This document shows positions 34,189-63,747 of a stretch of DNA of 64,000 nt, one piece after another. The notes beneath the pieces were generated by a model. The model saw only the letters and a program-made list of their open reading frames with translations, was not told where the DNA came from and made no database searches. Within the stretch, counting starts at the first letter, position 1; the number at the start of each line of letters is the position of its first letter. This DNA is from Semisulcospira habei (Eukaryota; Mollusca; Gastropoda; Semisulcospiridae). The stretch covers positions 122,055,451-122,119,450 of the forward strand of contig BTPG01000002.1 of assembly GCA_036245525.1 (NCBI GenBank), in the 5' to 3' direction. The position numbers and the translations under genes are program-made.

Positions 34189-34276
34189 TTAACCCTTTGT
34201 GTGTCCGTAGGAATTTTTGTCATGATGATTTCTGTAGGAATCATGGCAAATTCTGCTACCGACAAGCAAAGGGTTA
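34189..34276. mobile_element. MITE, family B
   Basis: TTAACCCTTTGTGTGTCCGT ... CTACCGACAAGCAAAGGGTTAA, 88 bp. Centre TCATGATGATTTCTGTAGGA. Confidence 0.75.
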
Positions 34277-34686
34277 AATGCCCTCCAATGCACATTGGAA
34301 ACTCTAAGTTTATAAGCACATCTCCCAGTCATCATGATATATCAATCAAAATGTGGTTCAAAATAACTTTTGCAAAACGGTATAGTCATGACAAAACACA
34401 CAAGTGCTGCCTCAGTTTTTCAGCAGCTGATCATTAGGCAAGTGGTGCACAATACTGCATCACATTTCTAGTGAACAAACATACAGGAAAATCAGACAGG
34501 TATTTCAGTCATGAGATGTCAACCATCAGTGAATTACTAGCTTGCTCAAACTACAGGCAACTGGAATGACAACGTATCCACTACAAACGAAAATTAGACC
34601 AATCCTATGGGAACAAGGCTTTCATCTACACATCATAGCTGCAAAAAACGTTCCCATGGGATTATTATAATATTGTTTATAGTTGT

Positions 34687-34861
34687 CTAAGAATCATCAT
34701 CTTTGACTTGTCTGATTTCAGCATCTTTGGGCTCAGTCATGTCAATGCGTATACCTAGGAATGTTGGAAATCGTGGGTGACCCCCTTTTGTCAGCTCCTG
34801 AAATTTGTACGTGATGATAGAGCCGATCTTGGGTGGATTTCGTCTGTCCTTGTCTGACAGC
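34687..34861 (-). CDS. Ligase exon 13 (OB domain end and stop)
   Basis: Acceptor TTGTTGCAG; 175 nt ending in TAG at 34687-34689. Encodes the second half of the OB-fold region, with SDKDRRNPPKIGSIITYKFQ and FLGIRID typical of the DNA_ligase_OB_2-like end of small ligases. Confidence 0.85.
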
Positions 34862-37800
34862 CTGCAACAACAAGGGGAACACATAAAGCATTTCTTCATG
34901 TTCCCTGCTAGACAATGGAAAGTGAAGTTTGTCATCTCAGCTTCTGTGTGGCTCTTTAAAAGCTCTCACAGCAATTGTCTAGATCATACCTTTTTTAACT
35001 ACCATCATCTACGAGGATAACATTAACCTCATGACTGCTGAGGAAAAAAGTGAACACAATCCAACTACAAGAGACTTAGATCCTCGTGAGCCCCTGTGAC
35101 TGGGGGGCTCATGAGGATCTATGCCTCTTGCTGAGACCAATTTGTATTCATGTTTCTTAGATGGTGTTGGCTTTTGGTGTATGTACAGTGGCAGGGAAGG
35201 GGTTAAAGAAAGACACAGAAGAACACTTCATTTTCCAGATGCCCAGCTATCCTTGCGTCATCATGGCCTATCGATCTCCTGCACTAGTGCTGCATGTAAA
35301 AGAGGTAAACTTAGGGCACCCACCCTGAGCCGACAGAGAATTCCACCCCACAGGCCATTTTGCAGCGCAGGGCTCCACACACAAACTGGTTGCGACCTTT
35401 CCCCTTCTCGTGACCAATCACAATGGCCTGCAACAAGCAACATGAATTATGTTCACCAAAACGAAAATCTGACATCAAGAGCAAAATATACAAAGGATAT
35501 AAGTTTTGATATGATAGAGAAAAAAAAACACCCAACACCATTGTCATAGACCATCTGCTTTTTTAGCCTTCTCTAGCCAGTGTAGCCATTGGCAACACTG
35601 GCTAGAGAAGGCTAGTAAAGCCAGCAGTCTGCCACTATGGTGTTGGGTGTTGTTTTCTATTAGAAGGGTATTAGTTTTTCTCCAAATGACATGATGCGCA
35701 CCACTTGTCCAAGTTTTCTTGCAATCATGACTGAATCCCTTAACCCTCAGAGCAAGCACTAACCAGCTGCAAGAGGCATACATCCCACAGTCGCGGGGGC
35801 TCATGAGGATTTATGTCTCTTGTTGGTTCTGTGTTCTTTATGCTTATTTCTGGTCCCATTTAGTTTCTGCTCTTTACATGAATGTCGATCAGTGTTCAGC
35901 AGTTTTTTGTTGCAAAATCCATGATCACTGGCATCGAAATGAAGCAGCCAGTAGCAAAAAGGTCAAAGTTCCAATATCAGGCTTCTGTTACAGATTCACA
36001 TCAGACCCTACAGTGAAAGGGGCCACAGAAAATCTGTACCTCCATTTGAGTGAGATCAGCTCTAGCTGTGCCTCACACTGTGTTATGTGTACAGTATTAA
36101 CTCATTCAACCCCATGCACATATTTCACAAATTTTGGCGGCGTCATCTAATGACTATGTACCTGTTGCAGGAGATGGATCGACCATGATAATTCAAGGGT
36201 AGTGCCAAATTAGCTTGGCGCCAACAGGCACCAAGCTAATCTGGTACTACTCTTGAATTATCATGGTCGATCCATCTCCTGCTGTAGTGCATCAGGGCTA
36301 AATGGTTTAAGCACACCAATATACTGCGGTATCTGAACGTGCACAGGTCACTGGCTCCCACAGGTGAGCGAAAGGTCCTCAGGCCAACGTCAGCTTTTAC
36401 AGGCTTGCCCACAGGCATGTATGAGCCTGCTAAGACTGACATCGACCTGAGGACCTTTTGCTTACCAATGTGTTTTCTTCACAAATTTATGTACTTTCAG
36501 CACAGCGATAATGCAATTTGACTTTATGGTTCCCGTGTGCCAAGATATACAGAGGATGCTTCGTACTTGGGGATAAAGGTATGGCTGATGGGGAAAGTCC
36601 ATACATCAAAAACAAAAGTGCTGAGAACAAAAAACAAAATATCCTCTGTTGACCATACACAGGCCAACTGTGGCCGTCGGCCCTAGGACCTTTTGTTCAC
36701 AGGGAACTCACCTCAGCATCGTAGAACTTCTTGATCTTGAGAAGCGTGGTGGATCGTGTACGCTCATACTTTGACTTGGGCTGTCGGATCATGAGCCCCT
36801 CACCCCCACGGTCCAGAACATATTTCAACTGATCATCCAGCTGCTTCTTGCTGGTGCACTTGGTGTGCTCAACAAAGTGGGCATACTTCGGCCTGCAAGG
36901 CAAAACAAGACAGCACAACTTTACTACAGCTGAAAATACATACCTGAACACGATGATGATTGTTAACCCTGTAAGTCTTGATGCAGTCTAACAGATAAAT
37001 TTGACCATGATCATGACCATGATAGTTGAAGGGAAGTGCTAGAACAGCTTGGCACCCAGGGGTGCCAAGCTATCCTGGCACCGCCCTTGAACTATTATGG
37101 TGAATCTATCTCCTGAACCATAATGTAGCCTTTATAGGACAATTTACATATCACAAATAATCAGCCTTACGATTTAATGGGTTAAATTAGCTCACAACAG
37201 GGTCAGATATAACATAAATCTGATAAAATTTTGCTTTTTTGAAAGCACCCATCCCTTTTTCGCTGTAGTTATTTCACTTATAACCCAGTGTGCAAAAGGT
37301 CTATGGGCTGATGTCAGGCATCATTGCCCCGCGCACTGCCATGCATGGGTCAACGTCAGCACTTCATGCAGTGGGAACAACTTCAGACAAATATCAACAA
37401 AAAATTAGCATCTTGTTACGAGGCAACTTCACTGCACCTTGCTAGCATATTTGGTGCAATCCACATTGTAGGCATACATCACCTATGAAAGTGGAAAACT
37501 GTATACAAGAGCATGTGCTTCCATTTTTGCACATTGCTTGCACGCATTGCTTGCATGTTACTGAACCAAAAACATTACATGTGTGACAGTGCATGTGTGA
37601 TGTTCTGAGATTTTAGACCTTATGGCTCTATGCCTATTCCCCAAATCACATACAGTGTACCTGTACATATATCTCTTTGGATATCGGTAGCGTGTTTTGT
37701 CGAGGTGATTCCTGTAGGAATCACCTTGACAAAACATTCTGGCAACAGCCAAATGGTTAATGATGTAACTTACTTTTTCTCTTCAAAGTAGTCTTTGATT

Positions 37801-40800
37801 GCTGCTATCCTCTCCTCAAATGGCTTTGTCTCCAGGCTGGGGGTATCAAACACCTGAAACACATTATGTCTTAATAAGGCGACAGTAACAGTGTCAACAT
37901 AATCAAAAGCAACAAATGTTACTTAGATGCACCATGAATTAAGATGGTAAACAAATGACTTTATGTATCATCTGCATATACCGGCAAACAACAAGGAGTG
38001 CATGTTTCCACAGGTAAAGCAAGAAACAAATATTTCTGAAAACCTAGAGTCACAAATTTGGCATACACACAATGATACAGTAAGCTACATACAGGTTAGA
38101 TCATTTATGTAATTTCAAAGTGAAACTGAAGTAACTTTATTAACCCTTTGGTTGTTGGTAGCACTTTTGTTCATTGTGATTCCTACTGGAATCGCCTTGA
38201 ACAAAAATGTTCCCAAGGCCAGATTGTTAATTCCTAAACTGTCCCTTGTCAACATTGCAGGGGATAATAAAATGTTCTGAATTTCAATCTGAAAAGGGAA
38301 ACTGAGAAATCTGTACTGAACTCACATGGTATTTGATCTTCTTGTAATCATCGCACCCAGCAGTTTTGACAATACGGACGGTTGACTGGAACTCACCACG
38401 CCCCCCAAACAACTCTCCATCCAGGTGCATGTCCTTCGGTAGGTCCTGTGTACAAAACCGACACAGCTACAGACTACAGAATTGACTGATTACCAGTAGT
38501 TGAAGGTTTAACATGCAAGGCACCAGAGTGATAATGGATGGCCCTCAGGGACAGGTTATGGGAGACACAGACAGCTATTACCTATGTCCACCTCTGTTTT
38601 TGCAAAAGGTCATCTGGAGTTATACTGCTCAATCCATCTCCTGTGACTGGAACATGGATGTTAGATGACACCTCCAAACTTTGTGAAATGCGGCCTTGGG
38701 GTTAAATGGGTTTAGTAAATATGGTCCATATGTACTTGAATTAAGGGATATATGGTACACATGTACTTACTGCTGTGAACCATGATGGAGCATAGAAGGC
38801 ATTCCCTAGCCGGGAATAGAAACACCTGTCAGAAAGAACAAAAACTCACTGCACATCACACTTCATCTGCTGAATCATGCATACCAATAGATCTTTCTCT
38901 TTAATCAATGTACTCTTTGACTAAATATGTGTGATTGTGATTTTGGACCTTATGGCTCAGACATATGTCAGGTTCAAACGCACAGACAAGCGCATCAATC
39001 ATTTGTATCAAATACCCTCTATTATCTACACATGAGTGTGCTTAGTTGGCAGGGTAATGAGATGAATGAAAGAATTTGGTAAAGCACTTGTATGATGACC
39101 ATTATTATTATTAATATATTATTCTTATTATTACTATTATCATTATCATCATCATTATCATTATTATTGCTCCTTAACACCTTCACTGCCTGTGGATGCA
39201 GATTGTGTTTCTTAAATCATTGTTAAAAGAAGGCCACCAACAAAAAAAACATGGATTCAAAGGCAAAGGCACAGTTATGGGGACACATGAGGATCGTTGT
39301 CTTTTGCAGTTGTTTTGAGTTCACTTTTCTGGGTAGTCAAAAGCCTGTTAAAATGCTGTCTGGAAATGGTGTAAGGAAAGCCTGTAGAAACCAATGTGCC
39401 CATGTCCTTTTTTTTCTTTCTTTTCTCTCTTCATGTAATTCTTACCGTACAACAGTAATGCTGCTACTACTGACTGTCAATACTCACTTTCCATTCCAGT
39501 ATGCTCGCACTCCATCCAGCTTCTCACTGATCCACCATCCAATGGGGTTGTGTGTCCTGAAAATACATACATCATTATTTCTGATCTGGTGCATGAGGGG
39601 AGACAATCTCCCTGTCTCCCCGATACAAAAGATTAAGTAATGCAGCCTCCAACTTCTAATTGAAAATGAAGATACTTTCAACTGTATTTTTCTCCACTTA
39701 TTAAATAAGCAATACATCCACTGAGCACTCCAAATGAAGCTCTAAAAGTTACAGTTTTTATTACAGAGACTTCTCCCTACAGTGCCAACTTCTCTGTCTG
39801 CGTCAGTGGAGATTATTTGCCATTAATCTCTAATGATACAGAGAACCAGGGGTCAGTTGCATGAACGAGCTTATTCCTTATTCTGCTATAGCAGAGCACC
39901 TTGCTTAGTGGCTGGCGCAGGATTAAGCTCACTCATGCAACTGGTCCTTACCTACCATGAATACTGAGCAAATGATAACAGGCCTACTCACTTTTCATCA
40001 TACTTGTGTGCCAGGAGTACATTCACCGTGATGTGTGGTGCAACATAAGCCTTTTTCTTTGCCTTGGAGACTCGTGCTTTTTCAAATGCCTCCCCAAGGT
40101 ACTCTTTCAGGTGTTTGCAGGTGCGCTGCACTTCGTCTTCACTTTGACCTTTCCAACTCTCACACCTGTAAAACAACATCCAGTCTGAAAATGTTACAAA
40201 AAATTGTCTGCAGCCAAATTGAAAAACAGAACTAAAGCTGGCTCTTAAACACACTGAGGTTTAAGGTTGCACAGTAATTCACAAATTTGGTAGATGTCTT
40301 CTGATGACTACATACCTGTCCCTGAGATAAATCAACCCTGAGAGTTCAAGACTTCTCAGAGCCAAGCTACTCTGGTACCACACTTCAACTATATCATGGT
40401 CAATCCACATTATTCCAGCAAGAAGGAGAAGAACCTGTAGCAGGGGAGATAATTTAGCTCAGTGTTCTAGTACAGTTGTACCAATTTCCCCCAGCACGCC
40501 CGCAGGCCCAGTGGTCAGCAGTCCTGCTAGTGTCAGAGCGAGTCAAGTACCAAGCCAATCGGCGAAAGGCACGCCGAACACACCCTTAGGGTTGTGGGGT
40601 ATAAATAGCGGTGCCTAGCGAGGGCGAGGGCGAGCAGGCCCTCCAGGAGACGGGTTTCCGGGATAAACCCCCCCAAATAAAGGGGTACAAATACCCACCC
40701 ATTTATAAAAGTAGGGTAAATAAAAGAGGAGGAGGCGTAGCCATCTACACCAAAACAGAATTAGCAATCACGGAAATCACCCACACGCTAAACCCACAAA

Positions 40801-43800
40801 TAGAGGCCATAATAGGTGAAATAACTACAACATCAAATGGGCGTAAACTAAAAATAGTAAACACCTACATCCCCAACCAAAGGGCCTATAGCCAAATACC
40901 AGTAGAAGATCTCAAAGAACTACTACTAGCAGGGGACATAGTGGTCGGAGACTTTAACGCAAAAAGCCCCCAATGGGACGAAAACCAAATAACCTCAGAC
41001 ACAGCGGGTAAAAAACTTGAGCAAGCCATAAATGAAACCCAAAGGTGTATACTAAATACCGGGGAACCCACCCACATGTTCGCCCAAGGTAACGCAGACA
41101 CCATGAACGCACTAGACATAGCGGTAGCCGCCAACACCATCGCTGTTAAGGCACAATGACAAGTGAATAACGACAACTTAGGGAGCGACCACTTCCCCAC
41201 CCTGATAACTATTAATGATAGGGACGAACCCCCACCAATACACCACCCCGGAGCCCCACAAAAAATTAATACCTCACGAACAGACTGGGAAACGTATCAC
41301 GAATTAACGAGATTCTCCCCAAACTGGGACGACAAACACAGCATAGACGATAAAACGGCCCACATCACAGACCACATTATCAGATCAATCAAGGAGTGCA
41401 CCCCCGCCGGATCGGATAATGGGAGACCAGGGAAATCCTGGTGGAATAAGGCCTGTGATCGAGAAGTAAAAAATAGGAAAAGAAAGCTCCAAATCTGGAA
41501 AAAACACAAAACGCCCGAAAATAGAATAGAATACAAACGTGCCAAAGCCATAGCAGACCGAACGGTAAAAGAAGCCAAAAAAGAAGACTGGTATGCCTTC
41601 ACAGAATCAATTAACATCAACACTAAGATTAAAGAAAGCTGGGATAAAATCAAAGCCATTAACAATGGCCCAAGAACCAGCATGCCATCTCTAAAAATAG
41701 AAAACAGAGTGTATGCCACCGATCAAGACAAAGCTGACTTACTAGCCCACACATTTAGCCAAGCTAGCTCAAATGACAACTTAACCCCGGAATTCCGGGA
41801 CCTCAAACCCCACTTAAGTACATGCTTTGAACAACCAACACAAATAAATAACTACGAACTAGACAACGAAATAACACTCCTAGAACTAACACAAGCCATA
41901 AGAACCACCGGAAAGGGCAAAGCCCCAGGCATAGACCTAATCACATACGAGATGATTCAAAGAAGCCACCCCTCCATGAAAATAGCTATAACCGCCCTCT
42001 TTAACGACATCTACTCCAAAGGGATATTCCCCACACAATGGAAAAACGCAGTAGTCGTCCCTTTCCCCAAACCAGGAAAACCAACACACCAACCAAACAG
42101 CTACAGACCCATAGCGCTAACATCACAACTAGGCAAAATGCTAGAAAAAATACTCAAGTACCGACTCATGTCATACTGCGAAAAACACCACATCTTACCC
42201 CCCCCCCCCCCCCCAACAAAGCGGATTCAGGAAAAAACGCAGCACACTCGACCACCTAACTACTCTACAACAAGAGATACTAAACACTCATAAAGAGAGA
42301 GGTACTGAACTCATCGGAATTTTTCTGGATATAGAAAAAGCGTACGACATGGTATGGCACGATAAACTACTTAGCAGACTGGGTGATCTAGGAATATCTA
42401 ACAAAATGTACAACTTTGTGAAATCCTTCCTGGCCGGCAGACGAATAACAGTCAAAGTAGGTAAGGCGTTATCAAGGGAATACACCCTAGAAAACGGAGT
42501 CCCACAAGGTTCAGTGCTCAGCCCCCTCCTGTTCACACTCCTACTCACAGGCCTCCACCACGTTGTCAGGCACAATAAAATAATGCAATTCGCAGACGAC
42601 ACCTCGCTAATAGGAAAAATTAAGAGCAGACAAAGAAATTTCAATTGGGAATTAGTAGGCTTCCAAGAATTCCAGCAAGACCTGACAAGAATAGAAAATT
42701 GGTTAGTAAGAGCAGGCCTTAAAATTTCCCCCGACAAAACCCAAGCAATCATCTTCAGGACCCACCAAAGCCCAAAATACCAAATAAGAGCCCCCATCCC
42801 TAAACTACATATTGGTAAAGTAGACATAGAATATCGTGTTCCTAGGAGTTACATTCACAAGTAACAACAACTGGTCACCATATATAGATCAAATATGCCA
42901 GTCGGCCAGGAAAGGAATTAACCTAATGCGCAAAGTAAGCGGAGCAGACTGGGGCACCGACCCCAAATCACTACTAAACCTCTACCACGCATTCGTAATG
43001 TCCAGGCTACTATACGCAGCCCCACTACTCACTAACTTAAACAAAACTCAAACCAAAAAACTCCTGTCAGTACAAGCAGATGCTTTGAAGGTTGTCCTGG
43101 GGGTCCCCAGACACACCCCCAACCTGCTTGTGCTGGCAGAGTGTGGCCAGAAACCCATAACGCTCACAATAATGGAAAGAGCTGCCAATCTGTACTATAA
43201 AACAATAAGCATGTCAGAAGACCACCCGGCCAAACTCACACTCACCTCCAGCCACAAACCCATAAATCAACCCACCCAAATGCCGCAAATAAAAGCAGCA
43301 GTCCAAAAGATCGAGGACACCATAAAACTCAAACTACCAAATAGAACCCCTAACCACCAAATAACAGTCCCACCATGGAAACTCCCACAAATAGAGGTAG
43401 ACCTGGACCTTACTAAATACCAGAAAACAACAGACGGGCCCAAAATGAAGATGGAATTCGATATCAAAAGAACCACTACATACAAAAACTACACAATCAT
43501 CTACACAGACGGGTCCCATGACCCAACCACCCACGCAACCGGACTAGGTATCCACGTTCCCAACAAATCGGATCGTGCTATCAAACTACCGGACCATACT
43601 GCAGTTTTCACAGCAGAGCTCACGGCCATCTTGGGAGCCATCAAAGTAATAAAAGCCGACCTCCAGAGAGCCAAGCACGTGCTCATAGTGACGGACTCCC
43701 TTTCGGCAATACAAGCGATTCAGAACCTAGACTCGTTCAGGGAAGATCTAACATACCTGGTCAGACTAAGAGCAGCCGAACTATCAGCCAAACAGTTAAA

Positions 43801-52800: not shown

Positions 52801-55800
52801 AACGAACAGTGACTGTCAAACAACAGCCACCGCTCCAAAAACAGCCCACAAAAAGACCGGCACCACGCCCACCTACGTCAAGCACAAAGGGTGCGGAAAC
52901 ACCCCGCCCACGACACAGGAGACCGGCACAGAGACGGAAGCCACACCAACCCTGACCATCAAGACCACTGAGACCAAGAACACGGGTACAGACCCGGCCC
53001 CACAACAGCCTCCACCACCGCCAGCCAACGGGCCAACTACCATCCAACGGCAACACCGACGCCACAGACCACCCAAGCGCTTCCGAGAGCACCGACCCGC
53101 GCTACTCCCCACGCCACCACCATACCTCCGCCTGCCACCCCACCACCGCTACCCACCACGCGCATCCCAGCGCCCGACCCCCAGACCCAGAATCCACTGG
53201 CCACCACCACCCCCACCACATCTCCCACCGGCATCCCATACCCAGCCACGGTTTCACCGGCCACCACCACCACCGCCACCACTCGTACAACAACTGCTAG
53301 AGTGGCTGGCCCATCAACACCTCCCAGCCTGGCACTGAAAGCGACGGACAACCGGCCACACCACCCGCCTCCTCCACCACCACCCGCCCGGCCCCGGCAA
53401 CACCACCAGCCACCGCGCGACGGGGCGACAAACAGACAACGACATACCCCCCCCCCCCCCCCCCCCCTGCTCCCCCCCCCCCCCCCCCCGGGCGAAATCA
53501 ACGAAAGTTGGAAGCCCTAGTCCGTTCCAAATTTGCACTTGCCAGTGCAGGGGCGCTCACACCAGAGAGAACAACCGGCCGCTTCACAAGCGTTTGGCCG
53601 AGCACTTCGTTAACAACCCATCGAGTACTACGTACTACAACTATCCACTTGAAGCGACACTCCAGCTCGAGCCACCGTCAGAACCAGAATCCGAAGCGGA
53701 CCTTACACCAACCCCTCCACCAATCCACATCCCCGACCACCTAATCCAGGAGAGGGAGTGGACGAAGAGGGAGAAGAAGGTACGCATAGGAACCATGGAC
53801 CTCGACGGCCTCGTAAGACTACTTGCGACAGCTATGCCAGCGATTCTCTCCACGGAGGGAGAATACTACCACAGAGCGTCAACCACAGTCAGATGGCTGT
53901 TTGACCAAGGGAACCTGAAAGACCACCAACCACCGAAGACCACCCATACAGGCTGCCAAGCGACCCTTCAGGCACAAGAAGCAGAGACCCAGACCATGCC
54001 ACAGCCCCCAACCAAATCAACGGGATGCCAGGCATCACAAGTCACCAAAACCAAAGGCACCAGCACCCAGCCACCCACCACCCAAGAAACAGAAAGACCA
54101 ACACGAGAAGCGGAGTCACAAACCGCACCTCCGCCCCAACCACGAACGAGGTCAACAGGGAGCCAGGCCTCCCAAGCGACCAAGACGAAAGGCACCAGCA
54201 CCCCACCCACCACTACCCACGAAGCAGAAAGCCTCACCGACCCAACCACCACCACAGCGGCCAGTACAAACACGGTACCGGTCACCACCAAGGACCAAGC
54301 TACAGACCCCACCCCGACACCGCGTCCAACCGGCGCGCACACCGACACCACCACCCACCGGCGACGCCACCGACCACCAAAGAAAGTTCGAGACCAAACC
54401 AAACGCCCGGCACTCCTCCCGACACCCCCACCACACCTCCGCCTGCCACCGCGGAATCACAGCGCACCACTCTCGTCTCAGCGGCCGACCCCCAGGCCTA
54501 GAATCCACTGGCCGCCACCACCACCACCCTACCTCCTCAGACCCATCTTCAACCGGCCACGGTTCCCCCGGCCACCCCCACCACCACCGCCACCACTCCT
54601 TCAACAGCTTCTGGAGTGGTTGACGATCCACCACCCACCAGCCTGGCGATAGCTACGGTTCCCCGGCCACACCACCCACCTCCTGCACCATCAACCGCCC
54701 GGCCCCGGCAGCACCACCAGCCAGCTGTGCGACGGAGCGACAAACAGACAGCGAGACAACTTCCCCCCCCCCCCCCCAAACCCCTGCCCCCCCCCCCCCC
54801 CCCCCCCCCCCGGACGAAATCAACGAGAGTTGGAAGTCCCCGTCCCTGTTTAAGCTCATCATCATCAGGGCGAGCAGGCTTCCCGCAAAGGGAAAACTCT
54901 GTTCTGTGAAAGAACATTAAATAGTAGTAAGACTTCCCGCAAGAGAAGACTGTTCTGTAGAGAACATTAGTAAGTTAGAGCCCCTTTTAGGAACACTGTC
55001 CAGCAACGGACATACTGTAGTTATTTAAGTAGATAATTTAAGTGCCTATAGTTGAGTGAGTTAGGGTCCTATAGAACTTGGTATTATAATTTAGGTTTTA
55101 TTTGGGTCAGTTAGTATGTCTAGTGTGTAGGATAGCATAGTTTTGGGTTCATAGGGTCTAATGAGTAGGTAAGCATAGTTACGATTTCGGGCGTCTTATG
55201 AGCGTCTATATTATTGTGTTTGTTTTATGCTACAATGAATGACTTTTGATATGTCTCAGATCATGACTGATAATGAAATGAATGTACTGTAAATAAACCT
55301 AAAGCACTTATAGAAATCTCATCACTGAGAGTCAGAGATTGATGATGATGAATGCAAGAACGGATGCGAGTCAGTACTGATGTTTGTACACGTTTCAGTG
55401 AGTGATGATGGCAGCGCAAGAGTGCACGTGTGGGTGTGTGTGTGTGTGTGTGAGACTGAGAACATGCTGAGAGCTTGTTAACGTACTTACTAGCTTGTCA
55501 GTTCAGTGTGGTACACATGGCAATGCACGCACAGTCACTACTCGATCATATCAACTAGGGTTTCGCTGGATACTGTGGTAGGTCCATTGCGCGATTTGGT
55601 ATTTTGAACACAACGCGAGGCAGACACACATATTTTGAGAGTGCGCATGCGCGACCAGTGTAAAAGACTTGAAGATAGACTAATTACACTCCACAGCAAT
55701 CTCCAGACCCTTCCCTAAACCTAAAAAGGGATACGGACTTAAAAGGTAGCTAAAACTGAACTAGACTGGCACTACTGGACTTGCACGTTGGATGGGCAGT

Positions 55801-56236
55801 CCATTGAGGTCTGACCATCTAATACACAAGCCAGCCAGGCTAGTTGAAGCTAGCTAACCAGAGTCCGTTACTAAACCCAAAGGAGAAAAAAACACACTTA
55901 GAAAAGACAGTTACAACACAATTTATTAATATTTCAGGTAAATAACCTACTCAGTTCACAGTAGACAAACAAACAAGTATGGAGATCAGTCACTACTGAT
56001 CTTATCAGTAAATATACTGAGCAAATGATAGCAAGAAGGAGAAATTATGAAAGCATAAAAGAATTCAAAAGAATTATGAAAGAATTCAATAGCGCAGTAC
56101 TTACGTGCAAGAATACACATTTCCATTTTTCATTAGTGTGTATCCTGTGTTGAACTTGATGCAGTCATCATCAGTCAGTTTACGCAGAGCCTCTTCTTCC
56201 TCTCCTCGTTTTGTCTTTGGCTCCTCCACTACAGAG

Positions 56237-56301
<65 letters not shown>

Positions 56302-59300
56302 ACACATGCAAACATTCATTTACAACGTTTACACACTACAGGCCCAGATCCAGGGGGGTGGAAGGGGGGTCCATGGACCCCCCCCCCCTTTCCCCTATAA
56401 ACAAAAATGTTATTGTGCTTGACAAGCACATTTTGTTGATGTTTGCACAACCACACACAAAAACTCTGCTTCAGGTGATTAATTTCTCAAAAAAATTTTT
56501 GGGACCCTCCACCACATTGATCCGGCCCTGCATTTCTGCCAACAACTAAAGCCATACCGGATGTGCAGTTATAAAAGTGGAATTATAGCTTACTGTCTGA
56601 AACATCTGTGGTTTACATGTTGTTCATGTCTTTTTTCAAATAAAACGGAATCATACATTCATCTCTAATTGTGCCATCACTATCAGACGGCTTATGCTGA
56701 TTTGCACAGCCTTAACGCCTTCACTGCCAAGAAATAAAATGAACATGATCCAACTGCAATAGACATAAGCCCCAATGACTGCAGGGGCTCATGAGGATCT
56801 ATGCCTCTAGCTGAGACCAATCTGAATCCATGTTTCTTGGACTGTGTTGGCTGTCCGTCATTCAATGAACCAGATTTCAGAAACAAACATGTACATACAG
56901 TGTACATACAGTGGCAGGGAAGGGGTTAAACTTAATCAGTTAGTCTTGTCTTGCCAGTTAATTATTTCAGTGAGTTTTCCCCAGTCATGTTAAGGGCCTA
57001 TATGAGTGGATTACGCGGGGCGGTCCGTGGCGCAGTGGTTAAGGCGCCTGCCACCAATGCTAAAGGTGCGAGGTTCGATTACGGGTTCCGGCGTCGGATT
57101 TTTCTCCTCTAGTAAGTGTCACCGTTAATTCGGGCGGACCGTTGGGGGTTCTTTCTCCGGGTACTCTGGCTCTTCCTCCCCCACGACTTTGGTATCAGTT
57201 TCAGCCCACTTAATCAAATTTCAAATACAAACGATTTTGAATTTCCAAAAACTACAGTAGCTCGCTTGAGCTTGCCCTTAGCACCACGTGAATGTTCAGT
57301 GTTTATGTACTGTGTGTGGGTGAATGCGCGTGATTCACGTGATTCACGTGAGCGTGCTTGTTGGGTTCAGTTCGCGGCGGCGCTTTGAGCCGATTTTCAA
57401 TTGGGATAAAGCGCCTATTTAATGCGCTTATTATTATTATTATTATTACCAAATTACATTATTTTGTATGTTATCTTTCTATACATACCTTCTTCATCTT
57501 CATCTTGTTTCTCCCCAGGGTGAAGAAACTCCTGTAAGTGTCCCTTCTCCTTGCGATAGCACTTGCTCCAATACTTGCATTTTTCTTTCTTTGCCTTGAA
57601 CTGCTTCACATTTTTCTTTGCTTTTTTAACAGAGGCTGCTCGTGACATGCCTGGTTTGGCCTCCATCTCTTCTGTCTTCCTCTTCTTTAGACACAGCACC
57701 TGTAGATGCACATCTGTTACAATTCATGAGAAGCCATACACAAAACTCAGCTGCAGAGGGGTCAGACTCAGATTCAGAGGCTTTATTGTTCAGGCTTTCA
57801 CCCCATCACAATTTGGGATTGGGGAATAAGGACGATGACATTTCATGAAAATCTGATCACAAGACAATTTTGTAAAACATTAAAACAGTCTGACTGGTGA
57901 CAACATCAGAGATAGTGTCTATTACAGTACTTGTATTATGGTCCTACATTCCTTACACACACGCTTGCAACCACCATCTGCTGCTGATATTGGATCTGAT
58001 GATTATTCACTAAATGTGATCCGAGGTATATCAAAGGCACTATATCAAGCACTCATTATTATTATTAGTAGTAGTAGAAAGTTCACATACTCTTTCACCT
58101 TAACCCATTCAGCCCTGATGCATGACAGCAGGAGATGGGTTGAGCATGATAATTCAAGGGTAGTGCCAGATTAGTTTGGCGCCAACAGGCGGCAAGCTAA
58201 TCTGGCACTACCCTTGAATTATCATGGTCGATCCATCTCCTGCAACAGGTGCATAGTCGTTAGATGTAGGGGAACAGGGAAGGGGTTAACCCATTTAGCC
58301 CCAATGCACTACAGCTGGAGATGATAATTCAAGAGTAGTGCCAGGTTAGCTTGGCACCATCAGGCGCCAAGCTAATCTGGCACTACCCTTGAATTATCAT
58401 GGTCGATCCATCTCCTGCAACAGATGCATAGTCGTTAGATGTAGCCTCTAAAATTTGGGAAATACATGCGTTGGGCTGAATGAGTTAAAACCATGCTTGG
58501 TCATTCTCGCAAGGTCAAACTTCATGTGAATACCTGCTAACTCTATGTAGTGTTTCGCAGACAAGAGTAAGATGTGACTGTACTGAGCCACCGACTCCTC
58601 CCTAACCAGCATGTTAATTAAGCACTCATTCAAGCTAAACCCATCAATAGCTGCGAAGTGCTGACCAGCATTGCAGGTGGCAACGCTGTATGACACCTTT
58701 TCAGCTATTGATGTGGGGGCACAACAGCCAACTGCATAAACACCCAGCGCTGACAGTGCAATTGTTTCACACTGACAGCCAGGCATCAAATGACTCTTTA
58801 GATCTGCATACTATTTAAATATGTCAGTTGTCCCTTTACACAAGCAGCTATCGACATTTAACGTTAAATGAGCGACAGTACCAGTAAAATCTTAACAGGT
58901 AATGGACCCATTTAAACCCATGACTGCGTGTCCTAAATTTTGGAAGTGCCACCTAACAAGTATGTACCAATTGGTGGAGATGGATCGACCATGATAATTC
59001 AAGAGTAGTGACAGATTAGCTTGGTGCCTGATGGTACCCTTGAATTATCCATCTCCAGCTGTAGTGCATTGGGGCTATATGGGTTAACCCCTTCCCTGTT
59101 GGCTGCTACGTCTCTTGAACAATCACATATTAGCTGATAGTGATACCTACTCAGACTGCTTGTGGCATGTGGATACAAACCAGACAAGCAAAAAGCATAT
59201 GTCCTCACAAACCCCCTCATATGTGGTGGATCATAAGCATTAATGTCTGCTTCATTAGCTTTTGTTGTTGTTGTTCACTGCGCTGTGGCAGTAAAGGACA

Positions 59301-61137
59301 TTAAGAAACAAACATTAGAAGTGAAAAAAAAGTACCTCAGCAAGTGCAGCTTCCTCATCCTCGGACTTGCGTTTTTGTAGACGTGTTTTCCATGGGCCTG
59401 TATCTTCCCCATCCAATGCACTGACCTCATGCACGAGTTTCTGCACACAAAGCCACCACATAGTGTTCACATGCATACAGAGTACAGTAATACAGTACAG
59501 CATGAGCGCCGTTCTGCACACAGGAGCTATCAATGCAGACTCTGTGATCATCTTAATTACTACTACCACTAGTATAGTACAATTAACAATACAGCGCATC
59601 ACATAGATGCCTTATCCCAACTGCAAATAACACCGCACACTGAGCACAAGCACGCTCATGCCAAACACATGCATTCACTCAAACACTACACAAAATTTAT
59701 TTACATGGTGTTTAACCAATTTAACCCCACAGCAGCATTTTTCACATTTTGGAGGTGTCATTTAATGACCATTACCAGTTGCAGGAGATGGATCGACCAC
59801 AATAATTCAAGGGTAGTGCCAGATCAGCTTGGCGCCTGATGTCGCCAAGCTGATCTGGCACTACATTGTGGTTGATCCATCTCCGGCTGAAGGGAGTTGG
59901 GGTTAAATGGGTTAAGGGCAGGCTCGTGTGAGCTACTGAGGTTTTGGGATTGATCGTATTTGAAAATGAAGTAGGCTGAAACTGGGACCATGTAAATTTG
60001 AAGGAAATCATTCATTTGGTCACAGGGGATCATTAAGAGTCCAAGTTTCATGCTGATGCAAGCGTGCACTACATGACTGACTGTATTACACTGAATTTGA
60101 GTGCAAGTGTTAGCATGTCATATTTTTCATTTTAATATGAAGTGTTTAATCACAGTTATGTAATGTAAAATCCTAACTACTTCATAAAACTGTCTGGCTG
60201 TCATTTGACATGTGCATGACTCAGCCGTAATAAAACTGCTAAATTAAAATTGTGATGATGCAGTTAAAATATTTTACCGGCTTTGAAGTAGAGGCATCTG
60301 ACGATCTAGCTCCATTTTTGATCACATCTGTATAAACAAAACTGGAGCATGTATTAATCTGTTTAACTCCATGACCACATTTCACACATTTTGGAGGTGT
60401 CACCTAACAACTTTGTACCAGATGCAGGAGATGGATCGACCATGATAATTCAAGGGTAGTGCTGAATTAGCTTAGCATCATCAAGTGCCAAGTTAATCTG
60501 GCACTACCCTTGAATTATCATGGTCGATCCATGTCCTGCTGTAATACCTCAGGGCTAAATGGGCTAAGTGCTTTTCTGCGTGTACATGAAAGTCATTCTC
60601 AGATGTCAGTGGAGAATTTTTCAGATCATGATGATTTTCTTTTATTTGGTTTGATCTGATATAACACACTGCACCCTAAGGCTGAAATCCCCAAATTTGG
60701 AAATTATCCTCCAAAGGTCACATACCAGTTTAGGAGAGAGATCAAACATAATAATAATATCAGTTTCATGGTTGAACCATGTCCTACTGAAGTGTGTTTG
60801 AGCCATCTGTGGAGACATGCCACAACAGCCATAAAGATAAAATGTGTGTATGCTGATCAATATTAATCTTGAGTATTAATCACTTTGTGCATGCATCCAC
60901 CGGTACTGTACTCAGTAGAGGCGGGTGCACGCACAAGGTGGTTAATACAATGTTTGTTAATACTGGACACATGTGGGACTCATAAGCGCAACATTAGTTT
61001 TTACCTTCCTTGGTGTCTTCGGTGTCTGTGTCGTCATTGTCATGAGAGAACTGTTCTATGTGTGCCTTGTTTTTGCGGTAGCACTTGTTCCCATACTTGC
61101 ACTTTGGTTTTGTTTTACCAACGGTTGCTGTTGCCAT
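34687..61137 (-). CDS. PBZ-PBZ-SWIM-ATP-dependent DNA ligase, complete 13-exon gene
   Basis: Spliced from 13 exons (listed separately) whose phases all agree: 1581 nt, 526 residues. Should seal nicks in DNA through a lysyl-AMP intermediate, probably in the nucleus. Residues 13-32 and 137-156 are two PBZ fingers (C-x5-C-x6-H-x5-H); PBZ modules in APLF and CHFR bind poly(ADP-ribose). Residues 207-226 form a SWIM-type C-x-C...C-x-H. The ligase core follows: motif I EKLDGVR with nucleophile K278, SRLGN at 293-297, motif III LDGE with E318, FD at 349-350, motif IV EGLMIR with E405, motif V LLKIKK with K426/K428, then an OB-fold region (435-526). Core size and motif wording resemble bacterial LigE-type ligases, not LIG1/3/4: no BRCT and no N-terminal DNA-binding domain. 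Function in PAR-directed repair is inference. Confidence 0.87.
35023..35206. mobile_element. MITE, family C, in ligase intron 12
   Basis: TTAACCTCATGACTGCTG ... GGCAGGGAAGGGGTTAA. Hairpin GATCCTCGTGAGCCCC / GGGGGCTCATGAGGATC. Confidence 0.75.
35324..35427 (-). CDS. Ligase exon 12 (OB domain start)
   Basis: 104 nt between acceptor TTGTTGCAG and donor GTGGGT. Encodes IGHEKGKGRNQFVCGALRC, the first OB strands after motif V. The Cys-Lys-Met-Ala-Cys segment is where the family usually has a hydrophobic loop. Confidence 0.87.
35527..35655. mobile_element. Palindromic MITE with AACACCCAACACCAT ends
   Basis: Left end ACACCCAACACCATTG and right end CTATGGTGTTGGGTGTT. The inner hairpin TAGCCTTCTCTAGCCAGTGT / ACACTGGCTAGAGAAGGCTA is nearly perfect. 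Lies in ligase intron 11 of the - strand gene. Confidence 0.7.
35740..35830. mobile_element. Fragment of family C MITE
   Basis: TTAACCCTCAGAGC start, then GCAAGAGGCATACATCCCAC and GGGGGCTCATGAGGATTTAT. The right end is lost. Confidence 0.5.
36097..36310. mobile_element. MITE, family A, in ligase intron
   Basis: TTAACTCATTCAACCCCA ... CAGGGCTAAATGGTTTAA with the consensus family A hairpin (GATGGATCGACCATGATAAT, inverse at about 36255-36275). Confidence 0.75.
36314..36555. mobile_element. Foldback element, family D
   Basis: TATACTGCGGTATCTGAACG at the left, with arms AAGGTCCTCAGGCCAACGTC and GACATCGACCTGAGGACCTT meeting near 36415. Directly follows the family A copy ending at 36310. A D fragment also sits at about 36590-36705. 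Confidence 0.6.
36712..36892 (-). CDS. Ligase exon 11 (motifs IV and V)
   Basis: 181 nt, acceptor CCTTGCAG, donor GTGAGT. Holds DRGGEGLMIRQP (motif IV, E405) and TLLKIKKFYDAE (motif V, lysines 426 and 428), which contact the adenylate. Both motifs are fully conserved. Confidence 0.92.
36963..37185. mobile_element. MITE, family A, divergent
   Basis: TTAACCCTGTAAGTC ... TTTAATGGGTTAA. The core hairpin TAGTTGAAGGGAAGTGCTAG / inverse is partly decayed, with loop CCCAGGGG near 37055-37062. Confidence 0.65.
37668..37760. mobile_element. MITE, family B
   Basis: CTCTTTGGATATCGGTAGC ... GGCAACAGCCAAATGGTTAA; the centre GATTCCTGTAGGAATC is a perfect palindrome. Ends 14 bp before ligase exon 10's donor end. 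Confidence 0.65.
37774..37853 (-). CDS. Ligase exon 10 (motif IIIa)
   Basis: 80 nt, acceptor GTTTCAG, donor GTAAGT. Begins with VFDTPSLETKPFEER; the FD pair is the motif IIIa aromatic-acidic site for adenosine. Confidence 0.9.
38140..38230. mobile_element. MITE, family B
   Basis: TTAACCCTTTGGTTGTTGGT ... CAAGGCCAGATTGTTAA with GATTCCTACTGGAATCG at the centre; lies in ligase intron 9. Confidence 0.65.
38326..38445 (-). CDS. Ligase exon 9 (motif III)
   Basis: 120 nt, acceptor GTACACAG, donor GTGAGT. Encodes MHLDGELFGGRGEFQ; E318 is the motif III acidic residue. The LDGEL.GGRG..FQ wording is the strongest link to LigE-type bacterial ligases. Confidence 0.92.
38771..38825 (-). CDS. Ligase exon 8
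   Basis: 55 nt, acceptor CTGACAG, donor GTAAGT. Encodes CFYSRLGNAFYAPSWFTA; SRLGN is the motif Ia equivalent (SR.GN in bacterial relatives), and APSWF is also shared with them. Confidence 0.9.
39092..39168 (+). repeat. ATT/ATC-rich microsatellite
   Basis: Interrupted ATT and ATC trinucleotides between ligase exons 7 and 8. A decayed family C MITE (about 39175-39353, TTAACACCTTCACTGCC ... CCTGTTAA) follows. Confidence 0.75.
39488..39556 (-). CDS. Ligase exon 7 (catalytic lysine)
   Basis: 69 nt, acceptor TTTTCAG, donor GTGAGT. Encodes WWISEKLDGVRAYWNG; K278 in EKLDGVR is the adenylated lysine of motif I. Confidence 0.93.
39992..40165 (-). CDS. Ligase exon 6 (second half of SWIM motif)
   Basis: 174 nt, acceptor GTTTTACAG, donor GTGAGT. 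The first base completes T208 between the two cysteines of the CxC pair. It carries C209, then TCKHLKEYLG with the C224-x-H226 pair, then a Lys-rich helix and the linker to the ligase core. Confidence 0.88.
40265..40415. mobile_element. Degenerate family A MITE beside the LTR element
   Basis: Scattered family A text: CACAAATTTGGTAGATGTC, then AGAGTTCAAG and CATGGTCAATCCACAT. Ends are lost. Lies 20 bp left of the LTR element. Confidence 0.4.
40601..40609 (+). promoter_or_regulatory. LTR TATA box
   Basis: TATAAATAG, repeated identically at 51962-51970 in the 3' LTR, about 165 bp from the LTR start. Likely core promoter for element RNA. Confidence 0.6.
40640..44737 (+). pseudogene. 5'-truncated I-superfamily-like LINE in the 5' LTR
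   Basis: Flanked by the 13-bp duplication AGGGCGAGCAGGC (40627-40639 and 44738-44750). It begins inside the endonuclease at LQETGF, continues RGGGVAIYTK, GDFNAKSPQWD and LGSDHFP. The RT has APGIDLITYEM, SYRPIALTSQLGK, FLDIEKAYD, GVPQGSVLSPLLF and FADD. An RNase H domain follows (IYTDGSHD, TAELTAI, VTDSLSAI, WVPSHVGILGNERAD), then a C-terminal C-x-C...H...C near 44120-44165. RNase H after RT suggests the I/Nimb group. Damage: an in-frame TGA at 41157 and frameshifts at the C-run 42200-42215, near 42835 and near 43800. Confidence 0.8.
44590..44737 (+). repeat. LINE 3' tail module
   Basis: CGACAAACAGGCA, then a C-rich run, then GGACGAAATCAGCGAGAGC and TGGAAGTCCC. The same module ends both ORF1-like units at 53420-53520 and 54730-54840, and appears on the - strand at about 62780-62905. 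Confidence 0.7.
45754..45771 (+). promoter_or_regulatory. Primer-binding site of the LTR element
   Basis: TGGTGCCGTCACCAGGAT begins a few bases after the 5' LTR. A PBS starting TGG pairs with the CCA end of a host tRNA; this one would need a tRNA ending CGGCACCA. The exact tRNA was not identified. Confidence 0.65.
46013..47095 (+). CDS. Gypsy-like gag
   Basis: About 360 codons, intact. A Ser/Lys-rich N-terminus is followed by a capsid-type domain (VFTGTKGDLKDWFCHFETCA, then AALERRFDPVEKENLYRVEF and ALASEFESFE), as in Ty3/Gypsy gag. Near the C-terminus a CCHC zinc knuckle CFNCREKGHYSKQC binds element RNA. The start may be further in, because the first 30 residues lack family resemblance. Confidence 0.8.
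   Translation: MSFSHCKMGAALCFLRLLAPSWLVHSPSSVHPKVDHKRKKSQGKGRHPPSESYSSSEESSCSRSSCSHRTQRNRVDTTRSFLNTSSSRARKERVPDVFTGTKGDLKDWFCHFETCARWNGWDYGEKGVNLAMSLRGSAQQVLGELSLGELEDYDAIKAALERRFDPVEKENLYRVEFRSRLKKKNESVTEYGFVLNRIASNAYPRMPPEARETIVIDQFVSGLPSKDLRRHVQFHHPSTIHEAIALASEFESFEERFEGRKPDNPEGGVRNISPTGMIDESLAKAFQMLSDKITSELQKVTKVLSRQPTGGRARNTSEVVCFNCREKGHYSKQCPDNSDRRGNGHVSGTAPNENAPGQGN
47191..50571 (+). pseudogene. Gypsy-like pol, broken by tandem expansion and frameshift
   Basis: Protease at the start (FLVDSGSSATVIG near 47250, with the D-S-G catalytic triad). A 59-bp tandem array at 47911-48382 interrupts the frame. RT then begins (48400-48670), shifts frame by one near 48665, and continues with YPLPHIGD, FSTLDLAQGFFQVEM, MPFGLCNSPATFERLM and the YIDD box (about 48957). 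RNase H follows (LDTDASATSVGAVLSQ, YRELYAVI, RTDHSSLRWL). After a long Ser/Asp-rich spacer, a second frame carries only DGLLYVV ... LLLVAPAEIRQEV, the leader to an integrase zinc domain. The HHCC and DDE core are absent. Confidence 0.8.
47911..48382 (+). repeat. Eight-unit 59-bp tandem array inside pol
   Basis: CTTCCTAGTCACCTCGAGCA recurs exactly every 59 bp at 47911, 47970, 48029, 48088, 48147, 48206, 48265 and 48324. Units are almost identical. The unit is a stretch of pol coding sequence; seven extra copies add 413 bp, which is not a multiple of three, so the downstream frame is lost. Confidence 0.92.
50572..51784 (+). other. LTR element 3' untranslated region with no integrase
   Basis: No long ORF. 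A GC-rich block 50505-50740 with a G-run (about 50600-50617) looks inserted; it contains a MRRHVRRNHP string reminiscent of zinc-finger ends of some LINE proteins, but this is too short to call. The rest is AT-rich. The integrase core expected here is missing. Confidence 0.55.
51785..51797 (+). promoter_or_regulatory. Polypurine tract of the LTR element
   Basis: AAGGAGGAGGGAG immediately before the TGTAGC start of the 3' LTR; primes plus-strand DNA synthesis in LTR retrotransposons. Confidence 0.8.
51798..55872 (+). repeat. 3' LTR, interrupted by ORF1-like sequence
   Basis: LTR parts are 51798-51979 and 54867-55872, matching the 5' LTR closely (small indels, for example GAGTGAGTTAGGG against GAGTGACGGTTAGGG). 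Between them lie 2.9 kb of foreign sequence. Confidence 0.85.
51980..54866 (+). mobile_element. Tandem ORF1-like units inserted in the 3' LTR
   Basis: Two related Pro/Thr-rich reading frames (52071-53338 with a frameshift at the G-run near 52260, and 53594-54652). They share a core (MDFEDLVLLLQDAVPAI against MDLDGLVRLLATAMPAI, then YYRA..T.RWL and LKD.QPPK) and a C-terminal block (RHRPPK, RPALLPTPPP, then RPTPRPRIHWPPPPP and LLEWL). Each unit ends with the C-rich tail module seen at the LINE 3' end. The last bases before the LTR resumes are an ATC tail. Likely ORF1 of the same LINE family, or a non-autonomous derivative. Confidence 0.6.
55873..55990 (+). mobile_element. Single arm of the 63299 foldback family
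   Basis: GGAGAAAAAAACACACTTAG, then AAAAGAC..TTACAACACAAT and TTATTAATATTTCAGGTAAAT match one arm of the palindrome at 63299-63382. It starts exactly at the right flank of the LTR element. Confidence 0.6.
56105..56228 (-). CDS. Ligase exon 5 (first cysteine pair of SWIM)
   Basis: 124 nt, acceptor CTCTGTAG, donor GTAAGT. An acidic/basic linker leads to GYTLMKNGNVYSC; C207 opens the SWIM CxC, and the intron splits codon 208. A CA microsatellite abuts the acceptor. Confidence 0.87.
56235..56298 (+). repeat. (CA)n microsatellite at ligase exon 5 acceptor
   Basis: About 30 CA units (GT on the coding strand) beginning about 7 bp upstream of exon 5 in transcription order. This replaces the usual polypyrimidine stretch with a UG/CU mix. 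Confidence 0.9.
56712..56929. mobile_element. MITE, family C
   Basis: TTAACGCCTTCACTGCC ... GTGGCAGGGAAGGGGTTAA; GCAGGGGCTCATGAGGATC at the centre. Lies in ligase intron 4. Confidence 0.75.
57017..57448 (+). mobile_element. tRNA-derived SINE
   Basis: The head looks like a tRNA gene: A box TGGCGCAGTGGTTAAGGCGC (57028-57047) and B box GGTTCGATTAC (57072-57082). About 350 bp of unrelated body follows, ending GCGCCTATTTAATGCGCTTA and an ATT tail (57429-57448). The clover leaf cannot be closed by a 3' acceptor arm, so this is a SINE and not a tRNA gene. It is antisense in ligase intron 4. Confidence 0.8.
57489..57699 (-). CDS. Ligase exon 4 (second PBZ finger)
   Basis: 211 nt, acceptor CATCTACAG, donor GTATGT. 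A Lys-rich stretch, possibly a nuclear localisation signal (KKAKKNVKQFKAKKEK), precedes CKYWSKCYRKEKGHLQEFLH, the second PBZ (C137, C143, H150, H156). The usual Gly after the aromatic is Trp here. An acidic end follows. Confidence 0.9.
58100..58289. mobile_element. MITE, family A with family C-like right end
   Basis: TTAACCCATTCAGCCC at the left; core family A hairpin; the right end GGAACAGGGAAGGGGTTAA is the family C terminus. Suggests recombination or template switching between families. Shares TTAA with the next copy. Confidence 0.7.
58286..58488. mobile_element. MITE, family A
   Basis: TTAACCCATTTAGCCCCA ... GTTGGGCTGAATGAGTTAA with a near-perfect hairpin. Abuts the previous element through one TTAA. 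Confidence 0.75.
58905..59087. mobile_element. MITE, family A, one hairpin arm deleted
   Basis: CCCATTTAAACCCATGACTG ... GGGGCTATATGGGTTAA. After the left arm, the right arm is cut to CCCTTGAATTATCCATCTCC. Its right TTAA starts a decayed family C copy (59084-about 59300). Confidence 0.65.
59336..59440 (-). CDS. Ligase exon 3
   Basis: 105 nt (35 codons), phase 0 at both ends, acceptor TTGTGTGCAG, donor GTACTT. Encodes a charged linker with KTRLQKRKSEDEEAALAE and no recognised domain. A symmetric phase-0 linker exon could be skipped without a frame change. Confidence 0.8.
59712..59915. mobile_element. MITE, family A
   Basis: TTAACCAATTTAACCCCA ... GGGGTTAAATGGGTTAA. Hairpin GTGCCAGATCAGCTTGGCGC / inverse; loop near 59838-59842. 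Confidence 0.75.
60278..60327 (-). CDS. Ligase exon 2
   Basis: 50 nt, acceptor TTATACAG, donor GTAAAA. Joins in phase to exon 1 and encodes VIKNGARSSDASTSKP, a Ser-rich linker. The exon is short; it is supported mainly by phase agreement (133 + 50 = 183) and good splice sites. Confidence 0.7.
60363..60567. mobile_element. MITE, family A
   Basis: TTAACTCCATGACC ... CAGGGCTAAATGGGCTAA, with the consensus arms GATCGACCATGATAATTCAA / inverse. A further decayed relative spans about 60660-60810. Confidence 0.7.
61005..61137 (-). CDS. Ligase exon 1 (start and first PBZ finger)
   Basis: 133 nt from ATG at 61137 to donor GTAAAA. Encodes a short basic leader and CKYGNKCYRKNKAHIEQFSH, a textbook PBZ (C13, C19, H26, H32), then an acidic tract. 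The ATG is chosen because no in-frame upstream ATG is evident before a stop and the PBZ follows at once. Confidence 0.87.
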
Positions 61138-62094
61138 ATCTCTGTATTACTTGATAAATCTGCAAAAAACAAAATTAATTTACGAAGATGGCCATAGCGA
61201 CATGACTTTGGGATGAAATCATATACGTACATCCCATGGACCTAAACATAGAAAGTGGATCCCTGAACTCCTGCTGACCCTCACTACCCTTCCCCGCCCC
61301 CCCCCCCCTCATCCCCGCCCCTCCCCCTCCACTTCATCCCAATGCAATGGCCATCAGGCCAACACTGGCAAATGTAGGTCTTACCGTGACAGCTATGGGC
61401 CAAACGGTAATGTCTTTTTACGCACTGCTACTGGTACTTTGTCTTGTTTTGATCTTTTCTTTTTTGTGTGTGTGTTTTTGCTTTTTCTAAACATAACAAA
61501 TCCTTCTCTTTGGATGGCAACTTTGTGGGACGGACTTTCCATGACAGTGCAATATGGATGTACGGCAAGTTATTACAGCTTGGTTTGGGGGGGGGGGGGC
61601 GGGCGGGGGGGGGGGATTGGAAATCTCCAATTACAACTGTTATAGCATCCAACGGCAACATTCATTTGCACACATATAAAAGAAAGTGTGTACATCTAAT
61701 TACGTTGTAGGCCTACTGTCTGACTTCTGTCCTGCCGCGCCGGGACTTTGGAGTCGGTCCTGATCGCCAGAATGAAAATAGGCCCAGTGCTTGCCATCAT
61801 TTGGCACCGTGTAAGGTGCCAATAGGCACCAGTTTTAAACCATATCCGATACGTCTTCTGCTGCTGGTTTGTTTGACGACATTACACACAAAAAGTTTGA
61901 CGGTCCGTGGTCGTTGACACCAGGTGAATGAGTGTGGGCGTAACATTGTACACTCAGTAGTACAACTGCCATCCACTGCGTCGTCCCCGTTATACAATAC
62001 AATAATACAATCAGATCTAATTTTACAATCAGTATACTTTTAATCTAACAACAGCAACAACAACAAAACAACAAACCCTCACTGATGCAGCATT

Positions 62095-63550: not shown

Positions 63551-63627
63551 TCTCCTGAAAGCGCCGCCGGCGTCGATGTGTGGTGCGCGTGCTTGTGAGT
63601 GCGCGCGCGCTCCAAAGTATCCGGCTC

Positions 63628-63708: not shown

Positions 63709-63735
63709 ATGCGCGCATATGTGCGGTGTGGGTGT

Positions 63736-63747
63736 GGGTGTGTGTGT

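Follow-up and report, generated by a model that had tools for sequence, protein, structure and literature searches.

A ligase E of the snail Semisulcospira habei that bears paired PBZ fingers and a SWIM-like motif, with predicted recruitment to breaks marked by poly(ADP-ribose)

Human LIG3 acts with XRCC1 and PARP1, using zinc fingers and poly(ADP-ribose) (PAR) to reach breaks, and combines a zf-PARP finger and a DNA-binding domain with a BRCT partner. An animal 'ligase K/E' with an N-terminal PBZ was described in 2018 and 2023 (PMC6264785, PMC10665377). 'LigK' is stated generally to carry domains such as PBZ N-terminal of the core, and a figure of the same paper lists models of the Lottia, Aplysia, Capitella, Salpingoeca and Blastopirellula proteins (PMC6264785). 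Three animal species are given as having PBZ at the LigE N-terminus, with Saccoglossus, Lottia, Biomphalaria and Capitella named as LigE holders (PMC10665377). The bdelloid rotifer enzymes AvLigE-A and -B likewise join a LigE core to PBZ and are linked to radiation and desiccation (PMC10665377, PMC6264785), the bdelloid LigE being radiation-induced and giving nuclear signal (PMC10665377); its PBZ is C-terminal, whereas that of the protein described here is N-terminal. Bacterial LigE differs in being minimal, about 250-300 residues; its canonical members often have an export leader (PMC8455567). LigE has been called essentially proteobacterial on the basis of a survey confined to 250-370 residues (PMC8455567), a limit by which larger WGR-bearing proteins would be missed; the leader-less Myxococcales cluster of that survey may belong to the SWIM-LigE family considered below. 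The word 'SWIM' appears neither in the main texts of PMC6264785 and PMC10665377 nor in passages from that of PMC10809525, although drawings in these papers may show the module, and a literature search on PBZ, SWIM, WGR and DNA ligase listed no paper on the fusion.

The window, a 64,000-nucleotide stretch of contig BTPG01000002.1 of S. habei, carries a minus-strand gene spanning 26.4 kb (34687..61137). Positions 34000-42000, 44300-47000, 50300-57500 and 56800-64000 were read, and splicing of the 13 exons by script (Table 1) gave 1,581 bases and 526 residues with 0 internal stops, and 12/12 introns were GT-AG with matched phases. The 13-exon, 526-residue model with consistent phases proposed in the first-pass annotation was thereby reproduced exactly, and the ligase motif residues it had named (K278, E318, E405 and K426/K428) were found at the positions claimed. 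A close relative, P0001 ('lgn', which we take to denote Logan read assemblies), has a 526-residue frame of the same length as the window protein and 97% identical to it (18/526 differences), on an intron-less contig of 3,153 bases. In tblastn, P0001 matched 13/13 exons in order, with exon 2 (50 bases) found only at E 0.18, while P0002 (Batillaria attramentaria, 86% identical and the nearest named protein) and P0004 (Littorina) matched 12/13. Exon 2 was the one without a match for these two, despite the P0002 protein alignment running across it. Given a 3,153-base contig against a 26.4-kb gene here, P0001 is read as the spliced transcript of a near relative; alternatively it may be a retrocopy.

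P0001 follows all 13 exons in one frame, which makes it very likely that the PBZ exons and the ligase exons lie on one transcript, the spliced-RNA evidence coming from the relative. This mostly answers the doubt, raised when the gene was first annotated, that the two sets of exons might belong to separate transcripts. A rival reading takes the model for two genes run together, the PBZ gene lying before a 16-kb intron filled with retroelements and the ligase gene after it; this would draw on the length of intron 5 (15.9 kb) and the whole LTR element inside it. It is largely refuted and extremely improbable, however, as P0001 holds both parts in a single frame with the exon order matched, PBZ and ligase domains occur together in the Batillaria, Littorina, Lottia and Aplysia proteins, and the SWIM-like motif is itself divided by intron 5.

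Table 1. Positions in the window of the exons of the PBZ-LigE gene and of other elements.
Feature	Position	Strand	Basis or remark
Exon 1: start codon and PBZ finger 1 (C-C-H-H 61042-61101)	61005..61137	-	splicing, Pfam, tblastn with orthologs
Exon 2: linker, 50 bases	60278..60327	-	splicing; aligned to P0001 and P0002
Exon 3: charged linker	59336..59440	-	splicing, tblastn
Exon 4: lysine-rich stretch and PBZ finger 2 (57520-57579)	57489..57699	-	splicing, Pfam, tblastn
Exon 5: SWIM-like module, first half (ends in codon after C207)	56105..56228	-	splicing, module profile, tblastn
Intron 5: 15.9 kb, retroelement-swollen	40166..56104	-	sequence, splicing
Exon 6: SWIM-like module, second half (C209...C224, H226), and start of ligase region	39992..40165	-	splicing, module profile
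Exon 7: ligase motif I, KLDG, predicted AMP-accepting K278 (39520-39522)	39488..39556	-	splicing, alignment
Exon 8: adenylation domain	38771..38825	-	splicing, tblastn
Exon 9: with E318	38326..38445	-	splicing, alignment, tblastn
Exon 10: adenylation domain	37774..37853	-	splicing, tblastn
Exon 11: with E405 and K426/K428	36712..36892	-	splicing, alignment, tblastn
Exon 12: OB domain	35324..35427	-	splicing, Pfam, tblastn
Exon 13: OB domain end and stop codon	34687..34861	-	splicing, Pfam, tblastn
LTR retrotransposon within intron 5 (no part of the enzyme)	44658..55875	.	two ~1.1-kb direct repeats
LTR direct repeats	44658-45750, 54787-55875		96.2% identical
gag-like frame of LTR element	46001-47092	+	zinc knuckle above cut-off, capsid matches below
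Reverse transcriptase/RNase H frame of LTR element	48602-50308	+	
Tandem repeat of 59-base units inside LTR element	47905-48375		copies ~99% alike
Frames with non-LTR retroelement look (endonuclease, reverse transcriptase, RNase H)	40605-44322	+	by eye
LINE-type frame, uninterrupted, 1,031 codons	9920-13015	-	endonuclease and reverse transcriptase domains
DIRS-like element	13375-19645		by eye
Repeats flanking DIRS-like element	13375-13576, 19448-19645		93.6% alike
307-codon frame	19983-20906	+	no Pfam match
MITE-like repeats	4537-4677, 24849-25057, 26259-26473, 36094-36311, 58099-58495, 59704-59915, 60351-60562		

Other elements were recorded in the window. A Pfam scan of one piece (41160-42290) of the frames resembling a non-LTR retroelement gave no match. 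The DIRS-like element contains plus-strand reverse transcriptase-like and recombinase-like frames, the recombinase Pfam match lying under its cut-off. The 307-codon frame contains a PPPPY motif and a stretch that resembles a transmembrane segment; it may be the final exon of a gene for a membrane protein. Dispersed repeats of 120-215 bases, in both orientations, about 78-94% alike and hairpin-like, resemble MITEs, and several are located in introns of the PBZ-LigE gene.

In the ligase core, Pfam DNA_ligase_A_M (PF01068) matched residues 271-428 at 44.8 bits (cut-off 26.2) and DNA_ligase_OB_2 (PF14743) matched residues 442-507 at 97.1 bits (cut-off 28), so that both models suggested as a check in the first-pass annotation scored above cut-off. 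The NCBIfam LigE equivalog model (PRK09125 / NF006592) scored 309.6 against a cut-off of 200 over residues 250-509, with the ten other NCBIfam ligase models listed far under their own cut-offs. The catalytic residues K278, E318, E405, K426 and K428 were invariant in 45/45 aligned relatives. The best solved relative of the window protein was the Neisseria LigE structure 8u6x (E 1.2e-59), and further solved relatives of the core were the LigE structures 4d05 and 6gdr; these bacterial enzymes share the adenylation and OB_2 core at 37-41% identity in structural alignments. The likeness to Haemophilus/Neisseria LigE that had been proposed therefore stands at the level of the family, but eukaryotic LigE and bacterial SWIM-LigE-WGR proteins are closer. 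At E 10, Pfam did not find in the window protein the N-terminal DNA-binding domain of LIG1, LIG3 and LIG4 (PF04675); this lack and a predicted PAR reader on the same chain set the protein apart from LIG3. On visual inspection, the charged N-terminus leads straight into PBZ 1. The predicted structure of P0001 had core blocks mostly above 90 pLDDT, a SWIM-like part at 90-94 and PBZ at 85-90, with residues 36-88 and 98-121 below 50. Its best fold match in Foldseek was the LigE structure 6gdr, and searches with the whole models of both P0001 and a Blastopirellula protein returned ligases only among the best 50 matches listed. The sequence evidence supports a single chain that joins a LigE-type ATP ligase to two PBZ fingers and a SWIM-like motif.

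The Pfam zf-CCHH model (PBZ, PF10283) scored 70.2 bits against a cut-off of 22.7 in two stretches with C-C-H-H complete, which bears out the two complete fingers first described. Solved relatives of the fingers were APLF structures (E 3e-7), and the Tyr/Tyr/Arg of the ADP-ribose pocket, whose role in PAR binding has been given for APLF (PMC6264785), is kept in both. At least two PBZ fingers were present in 43/46 best matches. Among the 88 fingers of these 46 matches, 76 had Tyr/Phe, Tyr/Phe and Arg intact and the other 12 had Gln in place of the arginine; because of this substitution, selection may not uphold strict PAR binding in every relative. The same 12/88 fingers lend something to an unlikely alternative, in which the PBZ fingers serve another contact (a protein scaffold, a histone or end-processing) rather than PAR and the ligase performs general nick sealing, as does a 3'-end processing role suggested from shared PBZ domains (PMC6264785). 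Retention of C-C-H-H and Tyr/Tyr/Arg in both window fingers, and the recurrence of paired fingers among the best matches, argue instead for PAR as the predicted ligand.

Between the fingers and the core, the window protein has a C-x-C-x(n)-C-x-H pattern (C207-T-C209...C224-K-H226), of which C207, C209, C224 and H226 were invariant in 45/45 aligned relatives, three of them bacterial. The Pfam SWIM model PF04434 did not reach the window protein at E 10 and reached only 2/45 relatives at E 0.1, while UniRef labels the Littorina ortholog and several fungal relatives SWIM-type. A profile was built solely from 119 modules of the bacterial P0117 family (SWIM-LigE-WGR), whose members are mostly unnamed and metagenomic, the four named ones being planctomycete. 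This profile matched window residues 194-241 at 51 bits (E 1.2e-15, with 242 sequences searched) and found 116/121 forward proteins, among them P0117 as a training sequence, vs 0/121 reversed. The five missed were P0037, P0045 (partial), P0050 and the crinoid entries P0076 and P0116. A Blastopirellula protein modelled from its own alignment had the module order strand-strand-strand-helix-helix-helix, the same as the P0001 model. Because a bacterial-only profile finds the window module and the predicted secondary structures match, bacteria and eukaryotes share the SWIM-like module, on profile and model evidence, as a single homologous unit, by whatever name it goes. The SWIM motif that had been reported is therefore present as C-x-C...C-x-H and its module is restored by the P0117-family profile, but PF04434 fails, and since this model misses the window protein and 43/45 relatives the label is kept as 'SWIM-like'.

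The relatives analysed were the 120 best matches to the whole window protein, a query that included the SWIM-like module. They include gastropods, bivalves, hemichordates and crinoids, with identities to the window protein of 51% for Lottia P0019 and 53% for Aplysia P0011. These two and Batillaria P0002 have the same order of PBZ, SWIM-like motif and core, with no difference of substance from the window protein. The architecture, first thought to be undescribed, is thus already known as the animal ligase K/E with N-terminal PBZ (PMC6264785, PMC10665377), and the window gene adds a further species. A BRCT domain was present in a chiton relative and in basidiomycete and oomycete relatives; PBZ was present in chytrid relatives and in that of the choanoflagellate Salpingoeca, whose BRCT match lay under its cut-off. 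In Salpingoeca and the chytrids PBZ precedes the core, which suggests from domain order that the PBZ-ligase fusion is older than animals and argues against the later metazoan acquisition of PBZ that has been proposed (PMC10665377). The fusion is not universal in animals, since two crinoid LigE entries, P0076 (Anneissia) and P0116 (Antedon), have neither PBZ nor the SWIM-like module, a state reflecting either loss or short gene models. In the basidiomycete Macrolepiota fuliginosa, P0060 has three successive SWIM-like motifs ahead of the ligase core.

A large bacterial family, reached through the match P0117, joins a SWIM-like module, a LigE core and WGR, the last present by Pfam in P0117 and in L006 of Blastopirellula marina. 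These proteins have the same module directly before the core as the window protein, with the same predicted secondary structure, and 43-50% identity to eukaryotic LigE over aligned positions; they differ in a C-terminal WGR (in the rows listed) and in having no PBZ. Named genomes with bacterial SWIM-LigE are mostly Planctomycetota, the others by record title being Verrucomicrobiota, Myxococcota, Obscuribacterales, Thermoanaerobaculia and Riflebacteria. L078, a SWIM-LigE gene in a metagenome bin titled Klebsiella pneumoniae, probably has a wrong label. The 10 proteins neighbouring six bacterial SWIM-LigE loci had nothing common to them (a chemotaxis receptor, DUF2721, SET, PPDK, methyltransferases, WD40, a kinase and two without a match). 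The SWIM-like motif was present in 114/120 matches of the whole-protein query and in 22/119 new matches of a plain-LigE query. The bacterial genome scan kept 80 loci of 525 confirmed; the genome and viral scans were seeded partly by the SWIM pattern (one of two seeds), so that its presence in 80/80 bacterial loci is no frequency. It was found in 19/80 kept loci of viral contigs and in a 485-kb phage record. SWIM-like LigE was noted in a large phage and in viral contigs (L163, L081-L088, L090-L094, L096, L124, L145, L150, L154 and L158); these lack WGR, judged by length, and are possible carriers of the fusion. Taken from sequence, the fusion of SWIM-like module and LigE is common to animals, fungi, protists, bacteria and large phages.

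A tree was built from the core only, with 101 hand-picked rows from the listed matches, the eukaryotic rows coming from the best matches of the window protein. Its sampling leaves aside bdelloids, annelids, ciliates and kinetoplastids, and rows were dropped for having no motif I by script (L060) or for being long, odd or deep (L145, L090, L162, P0263 and P0084). All 37 eukaryotic rows fell on one side of a branch (100/97), the 18 animal rows grouped together (100/95), as did bivalves and gastropods (99/97), and the window protein adjoined Batillaria (100/97); the chiton fell outside the other animals, at odds with the species tree. By this tree the animal gene is inherited from an older eukaryotic family rather than a recent acquisition by the S. 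habei lineage. Recent horizontal transfer from bacteria into the snail lineage, or contamination, could appeal to the wide occurrence of the core family in bacteria and to the acquisition by transfer argued for bdelloids (PMC10665377), but is hardly credible for a gene with 12 GT-AG introns that is nested in molluscs, in animals and in eukaryotes in a tree sampled without bdelloids, annelids and kinetoplastids.

The deeper origin is less firmly placed. The 25 bacterial SWIM-LigE rows grouped with four viral rows, one without the module (94/91). Their union with the eukaryotes appeared in the best core tree with support of 75/30, and the alternative clade of eukaryotes with proteobacterial plain LigE was not rejected (AU p 0.244). 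Presence of the SWIM-like module required 3 changes on the core tree (4 rows uncounted), and plain LigE rows and SWIM-bearing phage rows were intermixed. A tentative scenario, which we regard as possible though doubtful, would derive the PBZ-SWIM-LigE of animals, choanoflagellates and chytrids from one ancient gain of a planctomycete, verrucomicrobial or myxobacterial SWIM-LigE-WGR repair ligase. The SWIM-like module would have been kept as a DNA grip, and WGR, the nick-sensing fold of PARP1, swapped for PBZ, a reader of the PARP product. The enzyme would then correspond to LIG3 but act as one chain and independently of XRCC1, and vertebrates, arthropods and nematodes would have lost it.

The order of a predicted PAR reader (PBZ), a disordered basic linker, a Cys/His module and a catalytic core makes it probable that this LigE ligase is drawn to PAR-marked breaks and seals nicks in parallel to XRCC1-LIG3. 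PARP enzymes would build PAR at a break, and binding of the PBZ pair to it would raise the local concentration of the ligase. The SWIM-like module beside the core would be a zinc-binding grip on DNA, replacing the DNA-binding domain of LIG1, LIG3 and LIG4, while K278 would take AMP from ATP and pass it to the 5' phosphate before the nick is closed. The PBZ fingers and lysine-rich stretches suggest a nuclear location. LigK acts on kinetoplast DNA. A mitochondrial ligase of that kind, with PBZ irrelevant to nuclear PAR, would fit the relatedness of LigK and LigE (PMC10665377), but is improbable as the first PBZ cysteine is residue 13, with no evident presequence by eye, and the bdelloid LigE gave nuclear signal (PMC10665377).

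The proposal that the ligase is brought to PARP-marked breaks without XRCC1-LIG3 is weakened by a search of the same genome (1.98 Gb, 507 contigs). XRCC1_N matches were present on C3, and a zf-PARP finger had DNA ligase III as its best solved match (1.6e-34 vs 4.6e-24 for PARP1), this zinc finger being the whole of the LIG3 evidence. Because XRCC1-type and LIG3-type domains share the genome, the PBZ-LigE would act beside XRCC1-LIG3, as at most a parallel route. Other PBZ exons are also present in the genome. On the strand of the LIG3-like zinc-finger exon, one of them follows 68 kb downstream, the pair being at C1:246473148 (L169) and C1:246541081 (L171); either the snail LIG3 also has a PBZ or the PBZ belongs to a neighbouring gene.

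Vertebrates are reported to be without the ligase K/E type (PMC6264785), and bdelloid LigE raises the radiation tolerance of human cells (PMC10665377). Some invertebrates, molluscs among them, carry this additional type of DNA ligase, whose predicted PAR reader is built in. The SWIM-like module that it has in common with bacterial ligases would offer a testable part of how a minimal ligase holds DNA, and may serve as a marker of the source of the eukaryotic gene.
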